Of a stretch of DNA of 64,000 bases, positions 33,232 through 41,175 are shown piece after piece. Within the stretch, counting starts at the first letter, position 1. The number at the start of each line of letters is the position of its first letter. This DNA is from Tistrella mobilis (GTDB lineage: Bacteria > Pseudomonadota > Alphaproteobacteria > Tistrellales > Tistrellaceae). The DNA lies in contig NZ_CP121017.1 in assembly GCF_041468085.1 (NCBI RefSeq), positions 2,607,676 to 2,671,675 on the forward strand, in the 5' to 3' direction. Made by a program: the position numbers and the translations under genes. Below the pieces are notes generated by a model. The model saw only the letters and a program-made list of their open reading frames with translations, did no database searches and had not been told where the DNA came from.

Positions 33232-34590
33232 TCAGGCCTCGGACTTGTCCGACGCCTCTCCGGCCTCGCCGTCCTCGTCGGGATCCTTCATCAGATCCTC
33301 GGCGCTGACGACCTTCTCTTCGACCTTCGCCTGGGCGAGGATGTGGTCGACGACCTTGTCCTCGAAGATCGGCGCCCGGAGCGCACGCAGCGCATCCGGA
33401 TTCTTCTGGTAATACTCGATCACCCGCGCTTCCTGACCGGGGAAGCGGCGCGCCTGCTCGATCAGGGCGCGGTTGACCTCTTCGTCCGCCACCTGAACAT
33501 CGTTCACGCGACCGACTTCTGCAAGGACCAGACCCAGACGAACCCGACGCAGGGCGATCGCGCGATACTCCTCGCGGACCTCGTCCTCGGTCTTTTCCAT
33601 GCTTTCGAAGGTCTGGCCGGTGCGGGCCATCTCGTCGGTCAGCTGCTTCCAGATGCCGTCGAACTCGGCTTCAAGCATGCCCGCCGGCACGTCGAACGCA
33701 TAGCGGCCCGCAAGCGCATCCAGCAGCGCACGCTTCAGCTTCTGGCGCGAGATCTGGTCGTAACGGCCGCGGAAGTCATCGCGGATCGCCGCCTTCAGCG
33801 CATCCAGGTTGTCGAGGCCCAGCTTCTCGGCCAGGGCATCGTCGATGCCGGCGGTCTTCGGCGCCTTGACTTCCTTGACGGTGGTCTCGAACACGGCGGC
33901 CTTGCCCGCCAGGTGTTCTGCACCGTAATCCTCGGGGAAGGAGACCTCGACCTTGCGCTCCTCACCGGCCTTGGCGCCGATCAGCTGGTCCTCGAAGCCG
34001 GGGATGAAGGTGCCCGAACCCAGCGCCAGCGCGTAGCCTTCGGCCTCGCCACCCTGGAAGGCCTCGCCGTCGACAAAGCCCTTGAAATCGATGACCACCT
34101 GGTCGCCGGTCTCGGCGGCGCGGTCCTCGACGGTCTCGAACTCGCGATTGGCGGCGGCGATGCGCTCCAGCGCCTCGTCGACTTCCTTCTCGTCAACCTC
34201 GGCCGCCTCGCGGACCAGTTCGACATCCGAGAAATCGCCCAGCTCGAATTCCGGCATGATCTCGACGACCATGCTGTATTCAAGATCCTGGCCCTCGTCG
34301 AAAGCCGTGATCTCGATCTTCGGCTGGGTGGCCGGGCGCAGATTGTTCTGGTCCAGCACGTTGCGCGAGGTCTCGTTCACCGCCTCTTCCAGCACCTCGC
34401 CCATCACCGAGGAGCCGTAGCGCTGCTTCACGACCTTGGCCGGGATCTTGCCGGGACGGAAGCCGGGCATCTTGATCGTGGCCGCGATCTGGGCGATGCG
34501 GGCGTCGATCTTCTCGTCGATCGAAGCGGCCGGCACGACGACCTTGTATTCGCGCTTGAGCCCTTCGGCGTTGGTCTCGGTGATCTGCAT
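33232..34590 (-). CDS. tig: Trigger factor, ribosome-associated chaperone
   Basis: A 452-residue peptidyl-prolyl isomerase that meets nascent chains at the ribosome exit. The ribosome-binding motif GFRPGKIPAKVV is at about residues 43-54, the FKBP domain includes DQVVIDFKGFVDGEAFQGG, and an acidic C-terminal tail (MKDPDEDGEAGEAS) follows the chaperone domain. I start at 34590 (MQITETNAEG); upstream in-frame sequence is not family-like. It leads the tig-clpP-clpX-lon block. Confidence 0.95.
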   Translation of the reverse strand: MQITETNAEGLKREYKVVVPAASIDEKIDARIAQIAATIKMPGFRPGKIPAKVVKQRYGSSVMGEVLEEAVNETSRNVLDQNNLRPATQPKIEITAFDEGQDLEYSMVVEIMPEFELGDFSDVELVREAAEVDEKEVDEALERIAAANREFETVEDRAAETGDQVVIDFKGFVDGEAFQGGEAEGYALALGSGTFIPGFEDQLIGAKAGEERKVEVSFPEDYGAEHLAGKAAVFETTVKEVKAPKTAGIDDALAEKLGLDNLDALKAAIRDDFRGRYDQISRQKLKRALLDALAGRYAFDVPAGMLEAEFDGIWKQLTDEMARTGQTFESMEKTEDEVREEYRAIALRRVRLGLVLAEVGRVNDVQVADEEVNRALIEQARRFPGQEARVIEYYQKNPDALRALRAPIFEDKVVDHILAQAKVEEKVVSAEDLMKDPDEDGEAGEASDKSEA

Positions 34591-34792
34591 CAAAACGGTC
34601 TCACAGGGTCGGTTGACTGCGGCAGCACCCGGTGCGTCGCGGGGAAGGAGACGCATCCCGGGCCGGCCGGGACCGCCTCCGGACGAAACGCCGGGTGCGC
34701 GAAGAGACGTGATCGCGGGCAGCACTGCACCACGACACGGGCGGCAGCCATGTGGCACGAAATCACCCGGTTACGCAAGTCCAATACGTTGC

Positions 34793-34875: not shown

Positions 34876-36516
34876 TCAGGTGAGGGCATGCAGGGTATAG
34901 GTCGTGCCTGACGCATTCCACGCATCACGGACGATGACATCCCGCCCCGAAATCTGCACCAGATCCGCCGCGGCGGAGGAGTGGACCGACACGGCCATCG
35001 ACCGGCCCCGCCCCGGACCGGTGGCAATCGTCACCGAGACGAACACCAGTGCGAAACGCAGGGTCAGAACCTTGGACGCACCGCCGTCGCCATCATAAGA
35101 CGTCACGTCCCGGCTGGTGTCGGCGACCGCCTGACGCCAGGCGGCCGGCAGATTGTGCGACTCCATATGAGCGGGCAGAAGATTGTCGCGCACCACAAGG
35201 TTCGTGACGGCCGCGGTGCCCGTGGGAAGGCCGATGAGCATGCCCTCCCGCAGCATGACGGGAATGTCCACGACGTTGTCGGTAACGATGACACCGTCCA
35301 CCGGCTGGTTGATCCGCACGATGTGGCGCACGGCGCCGACATACGGATCGGTGGTCTCGACGTCGTTGTCGGTGCAGACATCCTTCATCACATTGCCGCG
35401 GAAGACAATGTTCCGGCAATTTTCATGGCAGGTGAGGATGTCACGACGGACGTATTTGAAGTGGTTGCCGTCCACCGAGACGTTGCTGACGTTCTTCATG
35501 ACGATGCCGGACATGATCTGGCGCGTGTCGCCCGGGGTCGATCCGCCGGTCCCGGCCGCATTGTCCGTCATGCCGTAGAAGACGTTGCCGCCGATGCGGA
35601 TGCTGTCGCCGCCATTGATGGAGAACAGCTGGAAGGTTGCGCCGGAATGGATCAGCAGATTGTCAGTGAACAGGGATTCGTTGGCATAACCTTCGAAAAC
35701 CCGGCAGTTGGTGTCGATATAGTTGCCGGAAAACTGGATGCCGTGGATGCGCGAGGCATTCCAGCCGATGTTGCGCAGCAGGAAGCCGCCCGATCCGGCG
35801 TGAAAACGGTTGTCACGGATCATATAGGCGCGCATGCCGCTGCCAAGCGCCTGATCGACGTTCTTGCCGGGATTGAACTGCGCCGGGTTGAGCGGATCAG
35901 CATAAGGGTCGTCCTGCGGATCCGGCCAGTCGAGGACGACCGCGTCGATGAACAGGACCATGTTGCATTGGGTGATGTTGAGCCCGCGCCCCTTGATGTG
36001 CACCAGGGTCTGGGCCTTGGCCAGCGTGCAGCCTGTGATGCGCAGATCAACGTCGGCGTTGTTTGTCCCGTCCGGCGTAACAAGATAGTCCTCCTCCGCG
36101 AAAATCAGCACGCTGTCGGCTTCAGCTTCAGCCCGGCCGATGATGACCAGGTTCTCGAGGCAGACGGAATCCGAATGGACGTGGACCACCGGGCTCACAC
36201 CGGTCGAGGTCGCCGCCATGGTGATGGCCGGGCGGGCAGTGACGCTGGGGCCCATGGTGACGAAGATGCGCTGACATCGCGTGCGGAGATGCAGCGTGGC
36301 GCTGACGAGATATTTGCCGCTCAGGGCCACGTCGCGCCCGCTTGCCAATGCGGCTTGCAGGGCGACGGTGTCGTCGGTGACGCCGTCACCTGCGGCCCCG
36401 AAGTCTTCGGGTGTCACGTACTCGGCCAGCCTGGCCGTCAACGTCCGCGCGACCGCACCGGGATAGGGCGCCGTATACAGCACGTCGTCTGAAGATATAG
36501 ACATATCAAATTCCAT
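34876..36516 (-). CDS. Tail-spike-like parallel beta-helix protein, copy 1
   Basis: A 546-residue protein of the pectate-lyase/GH28-like right-handed beta-helix group. The N-terminal part, GAVARTLTARLAEYVTPEDF then GAAGDGVTDDTVALQAAL, is the motif that starts many phage tail-spike depolymerases. The middle is rich in short Asn/Gly/Val repeats such as VSVDGNHFKYV and NIVFRGNVMKDV, typical of helix coils. The last 75 residues (from about SYDGDGG to WNASGTTYTLHALT) recur in the two paralogues. No signal peptide is seen. An ATG at 36504 is an alternative start. Substrate and role are unknown; no other phage genes are nearby. Confidence 0.75.
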   Translation of the reverse strand: MEFDMSISSDDVLYTAPYPGAVARTLTARLAEYVTPEDFGAAGDGVTDDTVALQAALASGRDVALSGKYLVSATLHLRTRCQRIFVTMGPSVTARPAITMAATSTGVSPVVHVHSDSVCLENLVIIGRAEAEADSVLIFAEEDYLVTPDGTNNADVDLRITGCTLAKAQTLVHIKGRGLNITQCNMVLFIDAVVLDWPDPQDDPYADPLNPAQFNPGKNVDQALGSGMRAYMIRDNRFHAGSGGFLLRNIGWNASRIHGIQFSGNYIDTNCRVFEGYANESLFTDNLLIHSGATFQLFSINGGDSIRIGGNVFYGMTDNAAGTGGSTPGDTRQIMSGIVMKNVSNVSVDGNHFKYVRRDILTCHENCRNIVFRGNVMKDVCTDNDVETTDPYVGAVRHIVRINQPVDGVIVTDNVVDIPVMLREGMLIGLPTGTAAVTNLVVRDNLLPAHMESHNLPAAWRQAVADTSRDVTSYDGDGGASKVLTLRFALVFVSVTIATGPGRGRSMAVSVHSSAAADLVQISGRDVIVRDAWNASGTTYTLHALT

Positions 36517-36660
36517 TTTTTACCGCCAGATTTAGCGGCTATTTTCATTTTAAAACTTCGGACGATATTTTTTTGTTTTATGTGTTGCGTATTGCCGCAA
36601 CACAATTCGGTATACTTTAATATTCAGACACGAGAGACAAGAGCACGAATACGGCACTCC
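36517..36660 (-). promoter_or_regulatory. AT-rich upstream region of beta-helix copy 1 with inverted repeat
   Basis: This stretch is strikingly AT-rich against its GC-rich surroundings and carries TGTGTTGCG (36581-36589) and its inverted match CGCAACACA (36596-36604) around six bases. It probably holds the promoter of copy 1 and marks foreign DNA. No precise -10/-35 pair is claimed. Confidence 0.4.
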
Positions 36661-36671
36661 AGGCCCTGTCC

Positions 36672-36717
36672 TGACAAACAATGCAACCCGGCAGATGGCA
36701 GCCATCCGCCGGGTTGC
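36672..36717 (-). terminator. Hairpin and T-rich tract after beta-helix copy 2
   Basis: GCAACCCGGC (36683-36692) pairs perfectly with GCCGGGTTGC (36708-36717); the interior also pairs GATGG with CCATC. On the minus strand ATTGTTTGTC follows, so this is a plausible terminator of the decayed copy. Confidence 0.6.
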
Positions 36718-36777
36718 GGCCGTCGCGGTCGTCCAGGTGGTGCCGTCCCTCTCCGTCGGGCACCGCTTCATTCATGG

Positions 36778-38111
36778 TCAGGTGAAGGCAGGCAGCGTGT
36801 AGGAAATCCCGCTGGCGTTCCAGGCATCCTTCACCTTCACCGTCCGTCCCGAGATCTCCACCTGATCCGAGCCGGCGGTCGCAGTGACCGACACCGCCAT
36901 GCTACGCCCGCGATCAGGGCCGCTCACGATCGTCGCCAGGACGAAGACGGGGGTGAAGCGAAACGTGAATTCCTGCGACGTCTGTCCGTCGCCGGTGTAG
37001 GCAACGACGCGGCGGCTGGTGTCGGCCGATGCCCCGGAGACGGGAGACGCGAAGGCGTGGGCGCCGATCTCGATCGTCTGCGTTCCATCGGTCAGGGTCG
37101 GCAGAATGTTATCGTCGATGATCCAGTTCGTCAGGCTTCCGCCCACGACGACACCCACCAGAGGCGGGTTAGCGACGGTGCGCAACGGATTGTCGAGCAC
37201 ATTGCCCCGCACCAGAAAGCCATCCAGCGGTGCTGCGACACGCACCCCGTAGCGCGTGGTCGGCGGACTGATCGTCGTATCGTCGTTGTCCATCCCGACA
37301 TTCTTCATCACGTTGTCGCAGATGCTGACATTCGGCACGCCCGAGGCGATGAGAACGACATCGCGCAGCACGCGCTTGAAGTTGTTCCCCACGATAGCGA
37401 CGTTCGACGCGTTGGAAACGTAGATCCCCGAGACAAGTTCACGGTGCCTCTCGACATTGGGCTCGATATTCCCGGTGTCTTCCATGCCGTGGAAGGTATT
37501 GTCGGCAATTCTGATGCAATCGCCACCTTCGATCGTGAAGACATAGCCGGCCGACTTGCCGTGAATCATCACATTGTCCGAGAAGAGCGATTCGTTCGCC
37601 ACGCCCCTGAATAGGCTGCCCCCTGAACGAAATCCGAGGGCCACTCGATCTCCAGAACATGCACGGCCAGCACGAGGTTGCAGCCCGACAGCCGAAGCCC
37701 ACGCCCGACCACCTTCACCAGCGTCTTCGCATTACCGAGCGAGCAATTGGTGATGGTGAGGTCGACATCCGCCCTGTTCTGCCCAAGCGGGGTGTAGGCA
37801 GCCGCCTGGTTGGCGAAGACGATCATGGAACCCGTGGTTTCCAGTGTCGTGTCCCACTCCAGCTTGTCCTGCGGATTACCCTGCATCACCAGGCCATCGA
37901 TGACGACACCCGAAGTGAGAACATTCAGGCCGGCCGTACCGCTTGCGAGATCCGCGAAATACAGGCCCGCCACGGCCATATAACCCGGCCCGGTGCTTCC
38001 CTGGATCTTCTGACCGATGGTCTTGACCAGCAGCGGCTGGGTGATGCGATGACGACCGGTGATCAACACGTTGCGGCCGGTATCCAGGGCAGCCTGAACG
38101 GCAAGCGTACG
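36778..38111 (-). pseudogene. Tail-spike-like beta-helix protein, copy 2 (decayed)
   Basis: Two out-of-frame pieces together resemble copies 1 and 3. The 5' piece (38111 down to about 37630) begins directly at TLAVQAALDTGRNVLITG, so the first 50 or so residues are missing, and ends at HVLEIEWPSDF. The 3' piece (37644 to 36778) resumes at SLFRGVANESLFSDNVMIH and runs to the conserved end WNASGISYTLPAFT. In copy 3 about 60 residues lie between those points, so an internal deletion has also shifted the frame near 37611-37635. Whether the 3' piece is expressed is unknown. Confidence 0.8.
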
Positions 38112-38227
38112 TCATAGCCGCCCATCCTTCGCCCCGGTCCGGCACCCAGCCGGCCGGATGCCCGCAGGAAGGTTAGGCGAGCAGGCCGCAGCCGGTGCCG
38201 CCGGAGACGTTGCCGCATTGCGGCGCA

Positions 38228-39314
38228 TTACGATTCTGGACGAAGGGACTGCTTTTTGATCTGCATGCGGGGCGCCAGGTCGAAGGAACGGCGCACCAGA
38301 CGAACCGCCGGCTTTTCGACAAAAAAATGAAACATACAGGATCCGGCAAGCGCCATAGTTGCGGCGACAGCCAGGAATGCGATGCCGCCGGCGCGGCCAT
38401 CGGCAAGTGCCAGAGGCCAGATCGCCCGCACTGCACCGATCGCAAAATAATGACAGAGATAAAGGGCATAGGAGGCGTCCCCCCAGAAGGCGGAGCCATC
38501 CGATCCGCCGGACATGCCCGCCCTTCTCCAGAATCACCGCCGCCAGCAGGATGACCGCTGCGGGAACCCCGGCGGTCAACCACCGCCAGAGGTCATAGGT
38601 CGTCTGCGGGGCCGGTGTCATGAAAAGAGCAACCGATCCGGCCGTCAGCAGGATCAGACCCGCCGGACGCGACAGCCGCATCCGGCCGAGGAAGGCGACC
38701 GCGACCGCCATCCCCAGCACGAAGTCGAACAGGATCGGCGAGGTCCAGACCCGAAATGCCGCCACGCCGGGACGAAAGATCAGACCCGCCGCCACCAACC
38801 CGGCCACGATGGTGACCATCGCCGCGACGCGGCGGGCGGGTAGCACGGCCAGCACCAGAGCGAACAGTAGATAGAATTCAAGCTCGAGGTTCAGCGACCA
38901 GCCGAGCTGGAACAGCGGCAAGGCCGTGCCCGTCTCAGGATGCGTCCAGGGCAGGAATGCGAAGGATGCCGCCACATGGGCCGCGTCCAGTCCCATCGTG
39001 TGGAAGATCGACGGTGCCAGGATCGCGAGCGCCAGCACTGCCGCGGTCACGATCCAGTAAGGCGGGGCGACCCGCGTCAGCCGCCGCAGGAAGAAGTCAC
39101 CCGGCCGCGCGCCTTCCCGCGCCGTCATGCAGGTCATGATGAAGCCGCTGATCACGAAGAACAGGTCGACGCCCTTCTGCCCGTCCGAAAAGACGGACAA
39201 ACCACGCCCCTGCAGGTGCACGGCATAGCTGTGACTGGCATGGAGCAGCACGACCATCATGGCTGCCAAGATACGCAGATACTGGACATGAAAGATGGTC
39301 GGCAGGCTGGTCAT
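38228..39314 (-). pseudogene. Acyltransferase family 3 membrane protein, frameshifted
   Basis: An OafA/ExoZ-type integral-membrane O-acyltransferase, which in known cases acylates surface polysaccharide. It starts MTSLPTIFHVQYLRILAAMM at 39314; the family motif region GVDLFFVISGFIMTCM and about eight helices follow. After GHVRRIGWLRLL the frame is lost at a run of six C on the plus strand (38479-38484); with five, the protein continues LGDASYALYLCHYFAIG to the stop at 38228, about 361 residues. Without that correction the frame reads a non-family tail to 38112. It could be a true pseudogene, a phase-variable gene or a sequencing error. Confidence 0.8.
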
Positions 39315-39360
39315 ATCCGGATGCCCGCGGCGCGCCCGAAGAATGAAGTCTGGGAAACGA

Positions 39361-39445
39361 TGGTGCGGGCGGTGGGACTCGAACCCACACACCTTTCGGC
39401 ACGAGAACCTAAATCTCGCGCGTCTGCCAATTCCGCCACGCCCGC
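39361..39445 (-). tRNA. tRNA-Leu (anticodon UAG)
   Basis: A class II tRNA with a long variable arm. Acceptor GCGGGCG pairs with CGCCCGC, the anticodon loop TTTAGGT lies between CGAGA and TCTCG, the T loop is GGTTCGAGTCC, and CCA is encoded at 39361-39363. It sits between the broken acyltransferase and beta-helix copy 3. Confidence 0.95.
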
Positions 39446-39493
39446 GAACCGGCGGTGGATATAGCAGATCGGCTGCGGCGCCGCCAGAATGTC

Positions 39494-39529
39494 GAAAGGC
39501 CCGTCCACCAGCGAACTGACGGACGGGCC
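39494..39529 (-). terminator. Hairpin after beta-helix copy 3
   Basis: GGCCCGTCC (39498-39506) pairs perfectly with GGACGGGCC (39521-39529); on the minus strand TTTCGAC follows. It lies 36 bases after the copy 3 stop. The T run is short. Confidence 0.5.
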
Positions 39530-39564
39530 CGGAACAGCCTGTAACTCTCTGACGACCCGTGCTG

Positions 39565-41175
39565 TCAGGCGACGGCGAAGAGGGTATAGGCAGTCGACGA
39601 CGTATTCCACGCGCCCTTGACCGTCACAACGCGGCCGGTGATTTCCACAAGCCCGGAGGCCGCCGCGCTGGCGGTGCCCACGGAGACGCTCTGGCCCTGA
39701 GCGGCACCGCTCACCTGCGTCACCGTCACATAGCTGGGCGTGAACTTCAGCGTGAAGGCCTGCGTCGCATTGCCGTCCCCTTCATACGGGATCACCTTCT
39801 GCGCCGTATCCAGCATCTCGGGCGCATTGGTCACGGCAGTCGAGCTGAAGTCGGAGATGTACATATCCGTCGGCACGACGTTCGCGCCGACCGACAGATT
39901 CTTGATGGTCGTCGAACCGGGATTGACGATCCCGATCAGCGAGCCACCGGTCGGGTTGGACTGGTCGACGATGTTGCCGTCGACCACCAGACCATCGACA
40001 TCTGCCGACTGGCCGTTCACGCGCACAGGAGCCCGATCGGCCGCCGGCGTGGCGATATTGGCGAGGCACACATCCTTCATGACGTTGTTGCGCACCAGGA
40101 TGTTGGCGCTGCCCGGTCCGATGTCGACCACCGCGTTGTTGACACGCTTGAAATGGTTGCCATCCACCGAGACGTTGCGTGCCGCCGCGATGAGGACGCC
40201 GGAATGGATCTCACGCGTGACGATCGGGTGTTCTGGCGTCGCCTCCAGGCGGTTCGGCTCCATCCCGTAGAAGATATTGCTGGCGATCCGCACGCTGTCG
40301 GAGCCGGCCTCGAGATGAACAAGATGTGCTGCCACCGTGCTGTGGATCACGACGTTGTCCGAGAAGAGCGCATCTTTCGCAACGCCCCGGAAGAGGCGGA
40401 TATTGGTGTCGATGAAATTGCCGATCACCATCAGACCACGCATGTTGGCCTTGTTTGCGCCAATGTTGGTCACGATGTAGCCGCCCGTGCAGCCATGGAT
40501 CCGATTGTCGCGGACGGTATAGCCCCTCATGCCGCTCAATGCCGTGTTGTCGTCGTTGGGACCATCCTCGAAGTCCGCCGGCCAGTCGATCTGCAGGACA
40601 TCACGGGCACGCACCAGGTTGCAGTTGGTCAGCCGGATGGTACGACCCGTCACCCGCACCAGTGTCTCGGCCTCGCCGAGCGAGCACTGACTGATGGTCA
40701 GATCCACATCGCCGTTGTTGGCCGTATCAGGCCCCACGGCCGCATCTTCATTTGCGAAGATGATCGACGAGCCGGCCGGAAAACCGTCGCTGTCGCGCCC
40801 CTTCACGATAAGGCTGTCGAGGACGACACCCGACGACTTGACGTTGATGACTGCCTGGTTTGCGCCGAGCGTCGGGAAATTGATCGACGCCTTCCCCATA
40901 TAGCCGGCGCCGGTGGACCCGAAGATCCGCTGACCATCAGTCGTCACGTTGAGCGGCGCCGTGATCAGATGCTTCACAAAACCGGACTGACCGTCCCGGT
41001 TGGACACAAGCATCACATGACGACCACTGTCGAGCGCCGCCTGAACCGCAACGGTATCGTCGGCGACACCATCGCCGACCGCCCCGAAATCCATCGGTGT
41101 CACAAAATCGGAGAGCTTCTCCGAGAGGTCGCGCGCCACAGCACCCGGGTAGTGGGCTGTATAAGTAACCGGCAT
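39565..41175 (-). CDS. Tail-spike-like parallel beta-helix protein, copy 3
   Basis: A 536-residue paralogue of copy 1. It begins MPVTYTAHYPGAVARDLSEK with AGGAAAAGAAC just upstream, then the tail-spike-type motif DFGAVGDGVADDTVAVQAAL at about 33-52. The body has beta-helix coils such as GLMVIGNFIDTNIRLFRG and NVSVDGNHFKRVNNAVVDIG; the end has the shared module YEGDG...FTPSYVTVT...WNTSSTAYTLFAVA. No signal peptide. By fold it may bind or cleave a polysaccharide; catalytic residues cannot be assigned from sequence. Not part of a visible prophage. Confidence 0.75.
   Translation of the reverse strand: MPVTYTAHYPGAVARDLSEKLSDFVTPMDFGAVGDGVADDTVAVQAALDSGRHVMLVSNRDGQSGFVKHLITAPLNVTTDGQRIFGSTGAGYMGKASINFPTLGANQAVINVKSSGVVLDSLIVKGRDSDGFPAGSSIIFANEDAAVGPDTANNGDVDLTISQCSLGEAETLVRVTGRTIRLTNCNLVRARDVLQIDWPADFEDGPNDDNTALSGMRGYTVRDNRIHGCTGGYIVTNIGANKANMRGLMVIGNFIDTNIRLFRGVAKDALFSDNVVIHSTVAAHLVHLEAGSDSVRIASNIFYGMEPNRLEATPEHPIVTREIHSGVLIAAARNVSVDGNHFKRVNNAVVDIGPGSANILVRNNVMKDVCLANIATPAADRAPVRVNGQSADVDGLVVDGNIVDQSNPTGGSLIGIVNPGSTTIKNLSVGANVVPTDMYISDFSSTAVTNAPEMLDTAQKVIPYEGDGNATQAFTLKFTPSYVTVTQVSGAAQGQSVSVGTASAAASGLVEITGRVVTVKGAWNTSSTAYTLFAVA

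Follow-up and report, generated by a model that had tools for sequence, protein, structure and literature searches.

Anchor-less tailspike-like proteins at a tRNA-Leu locus of Tistrella and a dispersed family that may share an operator

Three related copies at the locus

The window, the whole stretch of 64,000 nucleotides of Tistrella DNA analysed here (contig NZ_CP121017.1), carries three related copies of a gene for a tailspike-like β-helix protein close to a tRNA-Leu gene; two are intact and are considered here as tailspike bodies that appear to have been kept by the host without a virion anchor. The window belongs to a genome of 6.30 Mb in 4 contigs (G000), which is compared with the genomes of two sister species (G001 and G002, the latter T. 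mobilis). The copies and a nearby hairpin are arranged as follows.

34876..36504, minus strand: copy 1, a predicted anchor-less tailspike body of 542 residues from the likely start MSISS (open reading frame to 36516, 546 residues)
39565..41175, minus strand: copy 3, a predicted anchor-less tailspike body of 536 residues from MPVTYT (open reading frame to 41211, 548 residues)
36778..38204 (approximate), minus strand: copy 2, a pseudogene with a lost start, an in-frame TGA, and an internal deletion with a change of frame
36683..36717, minus strand: terminator-like hairpin of 16 pairs, 3′ of the remnant of copy 2

Copies 1 and 3 are intact open reading frames of 546 and 548 residues with a mutual identity of 44–45%, and their starts, MSISS (36504) and MPVTYT (41175), were chosen by comparison with the T. 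mobilis protein, which begins at the residue matching MSISS of copy 1. Both carry the PYPGAVAR or HYPGAVAR block followed by VTPxDFGAxGDG and a β-helix middle, as an earlier interpretation made from the letters alone (the sequence-only reading) had proposed. The C-terminal module that it also held them to share, and put at about 75 residues, is found here as about 80 residues, with 44% identity between copies 1 and 3 and 62% between copies 1 and 2; for this module PF24060 scored below its cut-off and no phage match was obtained.

The locus does not encode the trio of proteins first supposed, as two intact genes stand beside one wreck. In copy 2, the N-terminal part (residues 22–218 of copy 3, with one TGA) and the C-terminal part (272–546) lie in different frames, the former being nearest copy 3 (52%). 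Of the middle and end that this copy had been said to keep, the end is indeed retained, its last 69 aligned residues being nearest copy 1 (42/69 identical, against 33/69 with copy 3), whereas the middle has lost about 55 residues. Judged by its sequence, copy 2 is a dead gene. Terminator-like hairpins number five in the region, against 4.2 expected in shuffles.

No hydrophobic N-terminal core or signal peptide was seen in copies 1 and 3, by a crude hydrophobicity measure and by eye. In the window, where open reading frames of at least 150 residues that passed a composition filter were read by eye, no integrase or other phage gene was recognised, and the remainder reads as housekeeping (nuo, lon, clpX, clpP, tig, glutamine synthetase and parE). 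The absence of a signal peptide and of capsid, tail, integrase and lysis genes had both been noted in the sequence-only reading.

A predicted β-helix body without its anchor

An AlphaFold2 (AF2) model of copy 1, built from four sequences, is a β-helix (mean predicted local distance difference test score, pLDDT, 64; predicted template modelling score, pTM, 0.68), as expected by the sequence-only reading, which had named any other fold as grounds for abandoning its proposal. The helix spans about residues 35–455, mostly at pLDDT 70–89, and the C-terminal module scores low. Foldseek against the PDB placed the tailspikes of HK620 (E 3.5e-6), Dettilon and CBA120 at the top, with Sf6 at rank 14, and VIA-align superposed residues 14–474 of the model on 156–548 of Sf6 with a Z-score of 28.6. 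The PHROG matches are tailspikes (best E 3.6e-10 for copy 1 and 1.8e-11 for copy 3), the Pfam pectate-lyase-like helix matches are under Pfam's own cut-offs, and a family profile searched against the PDB gave matches in the neck region only. The profiles point to spikes for copies 1 and 3 and, with the β-helix model, agree with the earlier description of tailspike-like β-helix proteins without a prophage.

Copy 1 starts where the N-terminal virion-anchoring (head-binding) domain of its relatives ends. Its first 80 residues align with the central part of phage tailspike profiles (24–79 on 285–341 of phrog_17312, for instance), and in a 706-residue protein of Vibrio phage 120E34-1, with 24.5% identity over 94% of copy 1, approximately residue 207 corresponds to residue 29 of copy 1. 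In four proteins of 675–771 residues from among the class-wide matches (L021, L022, L025 and L026) the block lies at residues 187–282, and each of their genes adjoins, as read by eye, a podoviral tail tubular-like gene. A spike-like gene beside tRNA-Glu elsewhere in the window genome (L097) aligns over 609 columns with residues 195–783 of a T. mobilis prophage tailspike (L091) at 42.5% identity, and has no counterpart of residues 1–194 of that protein. On the model and these alignments, copy 1 is probably an anchor-less tailspike body, and the reading of these genes as host-kept bodies without an anchor is well supported. In the window, neither copy 1 nor copy 3 stands among virion genes.

The T. 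mobilis prophage in question (L091/L135, G002:C1 at about 41–62 kb) is podoviral, and its anchored tailspike has a body in common with the tRNA-Glu orphan of the window genome.

An insertion between tig and tRNA-Leu

The genes that surround the copies are the following.

33232..34758, minus strand: tig, which in Alphaproteobacteria usually adjoins tRNA-Leu(TAG)
38112..39392, minus strand: frame of an Acyl_transf_3 (OafA-like) acyltransferase, frameshifted in a G run and extending to copy 2
39361..39445, minus strand: tRNA-Leu(TAG), its 3′ side towards the acyltransferase and copy 1 and its 5′ side towards copy 3

tig was found in 54/58 genomes, from which 30 loci were taken; with both Tistrella loci and L076 left out, ARAGORN located tRNA-Leu(TAG) 23–273 bp from tig in 27/27 other alphaproteobacterial loci. 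Because the two genes are neighbours in all 27, the spike and the acyltransferase are best read, from gene order, as an insertion in an old tRNA-Leu/tig gap. The order in the sister species is tig, spike, acyltransferase, tRNA-Leu and mcd, with one β-helix gene, copies 2 and 3 being extra in the window genome; copy 3, between tRNA-Leu and mcd, is found in the window genome only and is absent there from both sisters. A consistent place of orthologues in a secreted-enzyme operon would have spoken against the sequence-only reading, and those of the two sister species are not in such an operon. The insertion lies on the 3′ side of tRNA-Leu, with copy 3 at the 5′ side. Its ends show no partial tRNA copy or direct repeat, and an attachment-site search at the Leu, Glu, Val and Thr tRNA loci likewise found no partial tRNA copy. 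The acyltransferase of T. mobilis matches PF01757 (E 1.1e-25); the gene is intact in both sister species and frameshifted in the window genome, where the frameshift may be a sequencing error.

The spike and its neighbours have diverged to very different extents. Between copy 1 and its T. mobilis counterpart the nonsynonymous divergence (dN) is 0.29 and the synonymous divergence (dS) 1.35, which is near saturation (Nei–Gojobori), whereas dS between the window genome and T. mobilis is 0.13–0.37 for lon, clpP, tig and mcd, and that of the acyltransferase (265 codons) is 0.17 to T. mobilis and 0.08 to G001. Because a dS of 1.35 stands against 0.08–0.37 for the surrounding genes, the window genome holds a divergent allele among conserved neighbours, through replacement or through the sorting of old copies. 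Between G001 and G002 the spike has a dS of 0.168 and a dN/dS of 0.084, with dS of 0.185 for mcd and 0.05–0.10 for tig, clpP and lon, a pattern of substitution that indicates purifying selection on the Leu-locus spike between the two sisters. For the family members B and C, listed below, dN/dS is 0.18–0.39. The suggestion of spare recombination cassettes is sustained in so far as it fits the apparent allele replacement at this locus and the polymorphic single-gene insertions of the family.

A dispersed family of orphan genes

A search of the three Tistrella genomes with PF12708 and reading of the neighbourhoods, together with the motif described below, gave at least 8 spike-like loci outside prophages, 4/8 of which lie against a tRNA gene (at about 50–120 bp) in genomes with 47–58 tRNA matches each. 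Besides the Leu locus they are listed here with the prophage spike, which is not one of the eight.

Glu locus: L097 in G000; L096 in G001 is a different spike, on a contig that ends before the tRNA
Thr locus: L020:6096-8742 in G001, a spike between two identical tandem tRNA-Thr genes
Val locus: L094 in G001
Orphan B: L018/L019
Orphan C: L092/L093/L095
Orphan D: L181:5066-6709, found via the motif described below, with orthologues in both sisters
Orphan E: L205:2953-4485, found via the same motif
Prophage spike: L091, in the podoviral prophage of T. mobilis

Empty sites are seen at two of the tRNA loci: the tRNA-Glu interval is ~70 bp in G002 against 2.05 kb in G000, and the two tRNA-Thr genes that flank the spike in G001 stand ~110 bp apart in G000 and G002. 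At tRNA-Val, the spike replaces what look like two small native genes. Among 20 control loci from other members of the class, taken from the class-wide search and mostly frames of <700 residues, 1/20 had a tRNA in a 7-kb stretch, ~745 bp from the gene, and several had signal-like N-termini by eye. Hydrophobicity does not separate B, E and the Thr and Val genes from signal-bearing controls and is not decisive for them. Orphan D is shorter in the window genome, with an altered end (547 residues against 584–585), possibly through a frameshift.

The close relative of copy 1 in G002 is that of T. mobilis KA081020-065 (NC_017956.1). Full-length relatives are confined to the 3 Tistrella genomes among the 59 relatives and 385 genomes of the class that were searched. 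In the class-wide search, with three candidates scored per genome, the remaining matches were confined to about the first 126 residues, and in the search of the 59 relatives an additional 40–240 stretch proved to be the Thr-locus gene of G001 itself. Two scans of genome contigs for the closest relatives returned none and T. mobilis only, respectively, and scans of viral contigs for relatives of the family, including one with L097, gave no match. Phage records matching copy 3 and copy 1 numbered 12 and 200, with at least 80% query coverage by one record each.

A shared dyad as candidate operator

The region upstream of copy 1 contains an inverted repeat that recurs at other members of the family.

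36583..36602, minus strand: 20-bp dyad TGTTGC-N8-GCAACA, with its 5′ end 98 bp upstream of the start codon of copy 1

The dyad was first seen by eye in upstream regions of orphans as TGYTGC-N8-GCARCA, and it or a close variant precedes copy 1 and genes at five further loci (6/8 loci) by 98–154 bp. Strict matches number 5 in the 6.3 Mb of G000, 4 in G002 and 7 in G001, against 1, 0 and 0 for a reversed-pattern control. In G000, 3/5 strict sites precede orphan spike genes (copy 1, C and D) and the other 2 are coding-like by eye; in G002, 2/4 are upstream of spikes. In C of G000 both arms are altered together (TGCTGC/GCAGCA), the dyad being kept.

A wider pattern, TGYKGCNRCAWNNNGCMRCA, was fitted after the sites had been viewed. 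Its exact matches number 7 in G000, 4 in G002 and 7 in G001, and an orphan spike lies downstream of 4, 2 and 4 of them, respectively. Of 17 upstream regions compared with it, 10/17 have 0 mismatches and 12/17 have ≤1, the corresponding frequencies in random 250-bp Tistrella windows (n=4000) being 0.025% and 0.33%. The motif also led to orphans D and E, both overlooked by the family searches. They can be aligned with five of the other orphans and match the neck profile built from these (E 4e-5 and 1.4e-17, respectively, at a database size of 5700); among PHROGs, D matches phrog_2234 (E 4.9e-6) and E hardly matches (0.16). Because the dyad is rare and both predictions, D and E, held, co-regulation of most orphan spikes is supported by these sequence patterns, despite sites that mark nothing.

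PhaR was considered as the regulator and rejected, as its palindrome is TGC-N3-GCA against TGC-N8-GCA here. Separately, one exact site of the wider pattern is present in all three genomes (L210 site 2870, equivalent to G000:C2:326369; G001:C2:471782; G002:C2:622845), and no spike-like gene was recognised beside it in G000.

Phage-like particles encoded elsewhere

PF13550, which marks a megatron-type gene, has matches in 3/3 genomes, at a gene transfer agent (GTA)-like cluster located at L161:7485-20447 in G000 (G000:C4, about 2.926–2.939 Mb), at L163 in G002 (G002:C1) and at G001:C12:50391; the cluster was read in G000 and G002, G001 being represented by its PF13550 match alone. In G000 its products include a distal tail protein (TIGR02217) and a baseplate hub (TIGR02218), each scoring above the cut-off, a megatron with a partial NF048004 match (391 bits against a cut-off of 800), a head-tail adaptor, a capsid (phrog_247), a scaffold (phrog_206) and a portal (phrog_145). 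The terminase assignment (phrog_38) comes from the gene in G002, to which a frame in G000 is similar. The cluster adjoins tRNA-Val(CAC) in G000, where no integrase was recognised by eye. By gene content it is GTA-like, the baseplate genes being of the RcGTA type and the head module of a different one.

The HK97 capsid family PF05065 was found in 0/3 genomes, and the view drawn from this, that the genome has no GTA, was overturned by PF13550 in 3/3, the capsid being of phrog_247. Two other carriers were rejected: a podoviral particle, with a tail tubular protein in 1/3 genomes only, and a contractile particle as constant partner, with a sheath in 2/3 (G000 and G002, not G001). A region of G000 around a tail sheath gene (L029/L030, G000:C4 at about 3.02–3.05 Mb) looks like a contractile, P2-like prophage.

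According to the available text of a preprint of 2026 (PMC13420450), the TspA of RcGTA (Rcc02623) is an unlinked chromosomal spike that sits loosely on the baseplate and degrades biofilm, and no TspA homologue is reported there from megatron-encoding Alphaproteobacteria outside the Rhodobacterales.

Interpretation and alternatives

The explanation we favour, to which we give about an even chance, is that the host has domesticated the tailspike bodies encoded by copies 1 and 3, copy 1 being part of a dispersed Tistrella family that is largely co-regulated. Copy 3 is a further member, 45% identical to copy 1, that lacks the operator and is found at this place in the window genome only. Relative to the sequence-only reading, the death of copy 2, the missing anchor, the acyltransferase, the tRNA-Leu site, the larger family and the common dyad are new. 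The whole suggests that the host has taken over anchor-less tailspikes for its own use. A bolder form, which we hold more tentatively, is a Tistrella "tailspike regulon", in which one regulator would govern scattered, exchangeable anchor-less bodies that serve as soluble polysaccharide tools or as swappable spikes of a particle, and that are gained at tRNA flanks and replaced in place by divergent alleles.

In such a scheme, one putative regulator would switch on the spike set together and the proteins would trimerise in the cytoplasm, for which no signal peptide is needed. They could then be released when the cell lyses, or be carried out on a phage-like particle, of which the GTA-like one is an example, and, once outside, would bind or cut surface polysaccharide, the acylation of which the neighbouring acyltransferase may determine. 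That they act on polysaccharide, whether freed by lysis or borne on a particle, is inferred from the fold, the lack of a signal peptide and precedent. Different bodies for different polysaccharides would explain the gain, swap and loss of single genes.

Several observations weigh against this interpretation. For the C-terminal module (model pLDDT 69), Foldseek gives no clear structural match (best E 0.12). Among phage relatives that span most of copy 1 or copy 3, identity does not exceed about 25–27%, and VIA-align gives the copy 1 model Z-scores of 29–30 to the RbmB and AlgE enzymes; because these are similar to that for Sf6, spike and enzyme are not told apart by fold alone. Some of the genes marked by the motif had also served to define it, which leaves D and E as the only predictions, and strict sites are upstream of spikes in 2/7 cases only in G001. 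With ≤1 mismatch allowed, the wider pattern occurs 37, 42 and 42 times in G000, G002 and G001 (reversed control 13, 13 and 11), so that most such matches are not spikes. Eleven further sites were inspected (five exact, six with one mismatch): E stands at one, and 10/11 have no spike by the neck pattern; at the G001 site on C42, no spike gene was seen by eye. Copy 3, both Glu genes and the Thr gene have 3–4 mismatches and no dyad, and the Leu gene of G001 has 2 mismatches to the wider pattern. The dyad was not found at the GTA-like cluster.

The strongest alternative, though an unlikely one, is that the locus is the remnant of a P22/Sf6-type prophage end, a tailspike and an O-acyltransferase left beside a tRNA with no present function. 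The decay of copy 2 and the adjacency to tRNA at 4/8 loci would fit such an origin, and the position of the tailspike/acyltransferase pair at the 3′ side of tRNA-Leu recalls the Shigella serotype-converting phages as far as these are described in the available text of PMC3851460. Against it stand the four tRNA loci without a partial tRNA copy, the window without a recognised integrase or phage gene and the dN/dS of 0.084 between G001 and G002, which is that of purifying rather than relaxed selection; a common dyad at unrelated loci would also be unexpected of independent remnants.

Somewhat less probable is a narrower form of the favoured explanation, in which the bodies are TspA-like detachable spikes of a GTA-like particle encoded elsewhere. 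The particle genes are there (PF13550 in 3/3 genomes; a cluster, read in two, with TIGR02217, TIGR02218, a partial megatron, capsid, portal and terminase), and RcGTA, in the part of PMC13420450 available, uses the unlinked spike TspA/Rcc02623. However, copy 1 has no room for the N-terminal β-sandwich of TspA, the same text finds no TspA homologue in megatron-encoding Alphaproteobacteria outside the Rhodobacterales, and, because the cluster lacks the spike dyad, a link between spikes and particle is a possibility only. The sequence-only proposal of tips for a particle encoded elsewhere thus gains a candidate particle and the TspA precedent, but no tie between the spikes and that particle was found.

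Interference with phages inside the cell is improbable. Anchor-less bodies would co-trimerise with the tailspike of an infecting phage, leaving spikes that cannot attach to the virion, which accords with the missing anchor, the lack of a visible signal peptide in copies 1 and 3, the body in common with a prophage spike (42.5%) and the divergent allele at one locus; an identity of 42%, however, is probably too distant for mixed trimers, and no phage with a closely similar full-length spike was found. We regard as equally doubtful that these are secreted polysaccharide enzymes exported without a classical signal, which match the model as well as Sf6 does in the case of RbmB and AlgE, as inspection by eye and a crude hydrophobicity measure showed neither a signal nor an RTX-like tail in copies 1 and 3, and no polysaccharide operon surrounds them.

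Significance and comparison with known systems

The biofilm-degrading TspA of RcGTA is the one well-studied host-encoded tailspike outside a prophage met in the literature (PMC13420450, in the text available), and no paper dealing with orphan Tistrella spikes or with any spike regulon was found, in a searched set that excluded most subscription papers. If the favoured explanation is true, a genus with many such genes, the majority behind a common operator, would offer a natural collection of soluble proteins specific for polysaccharides. Whether spare spikes are kept for particles, for biofilm release or against phages would become a testable question, and the dyad offers a handle, since with its regulator the whole set could be switched on together.

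In the podoviral tailspikes of the Sf6, HK620 and P22 type, the right-handed β-helix body and the DFGAxGDG neck have counterparts in copies 1 and 3, which differ in having neither a head-binding domain nor a virion gene neighbourhood and in being single dispersed genes. Sf6-like serotype-conversion regions have the tailspike, O-acyltransferase and tRNA side by side, as at the Leu locus. In Shigella serotype-converting phages, the conversion genes lie next to int-attP and integration occurs in tRNA genes, according to the available text of PMC3851460. Unlike a P22/Sf6-like conversion end, the Leu locus showed no attachment-site repeats, integrase or other phage genes, and its operator is common to distant loci. 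RbmB and the AlgE epimerases have the same fold as the model, with similar Z-scores, but copies 1 and 3 lack, by eye, the signal peptide or polysaccharide operon of several alphaproteobacterial relatives. TspA (Rcc02623) is likewise an orphan, unlinked chromosomal β-helix spike in a genome with GTA-type baseplate genes, as far as the available text of PMC13420450 describes it. Copy 1, unlike TspA, has only about 30 residues before the helix and hence no N-terminal β-sandwich, no dyad shared with the GTA-like cluster was found, and Tistrella has several different bodies where TspA is a single gene.

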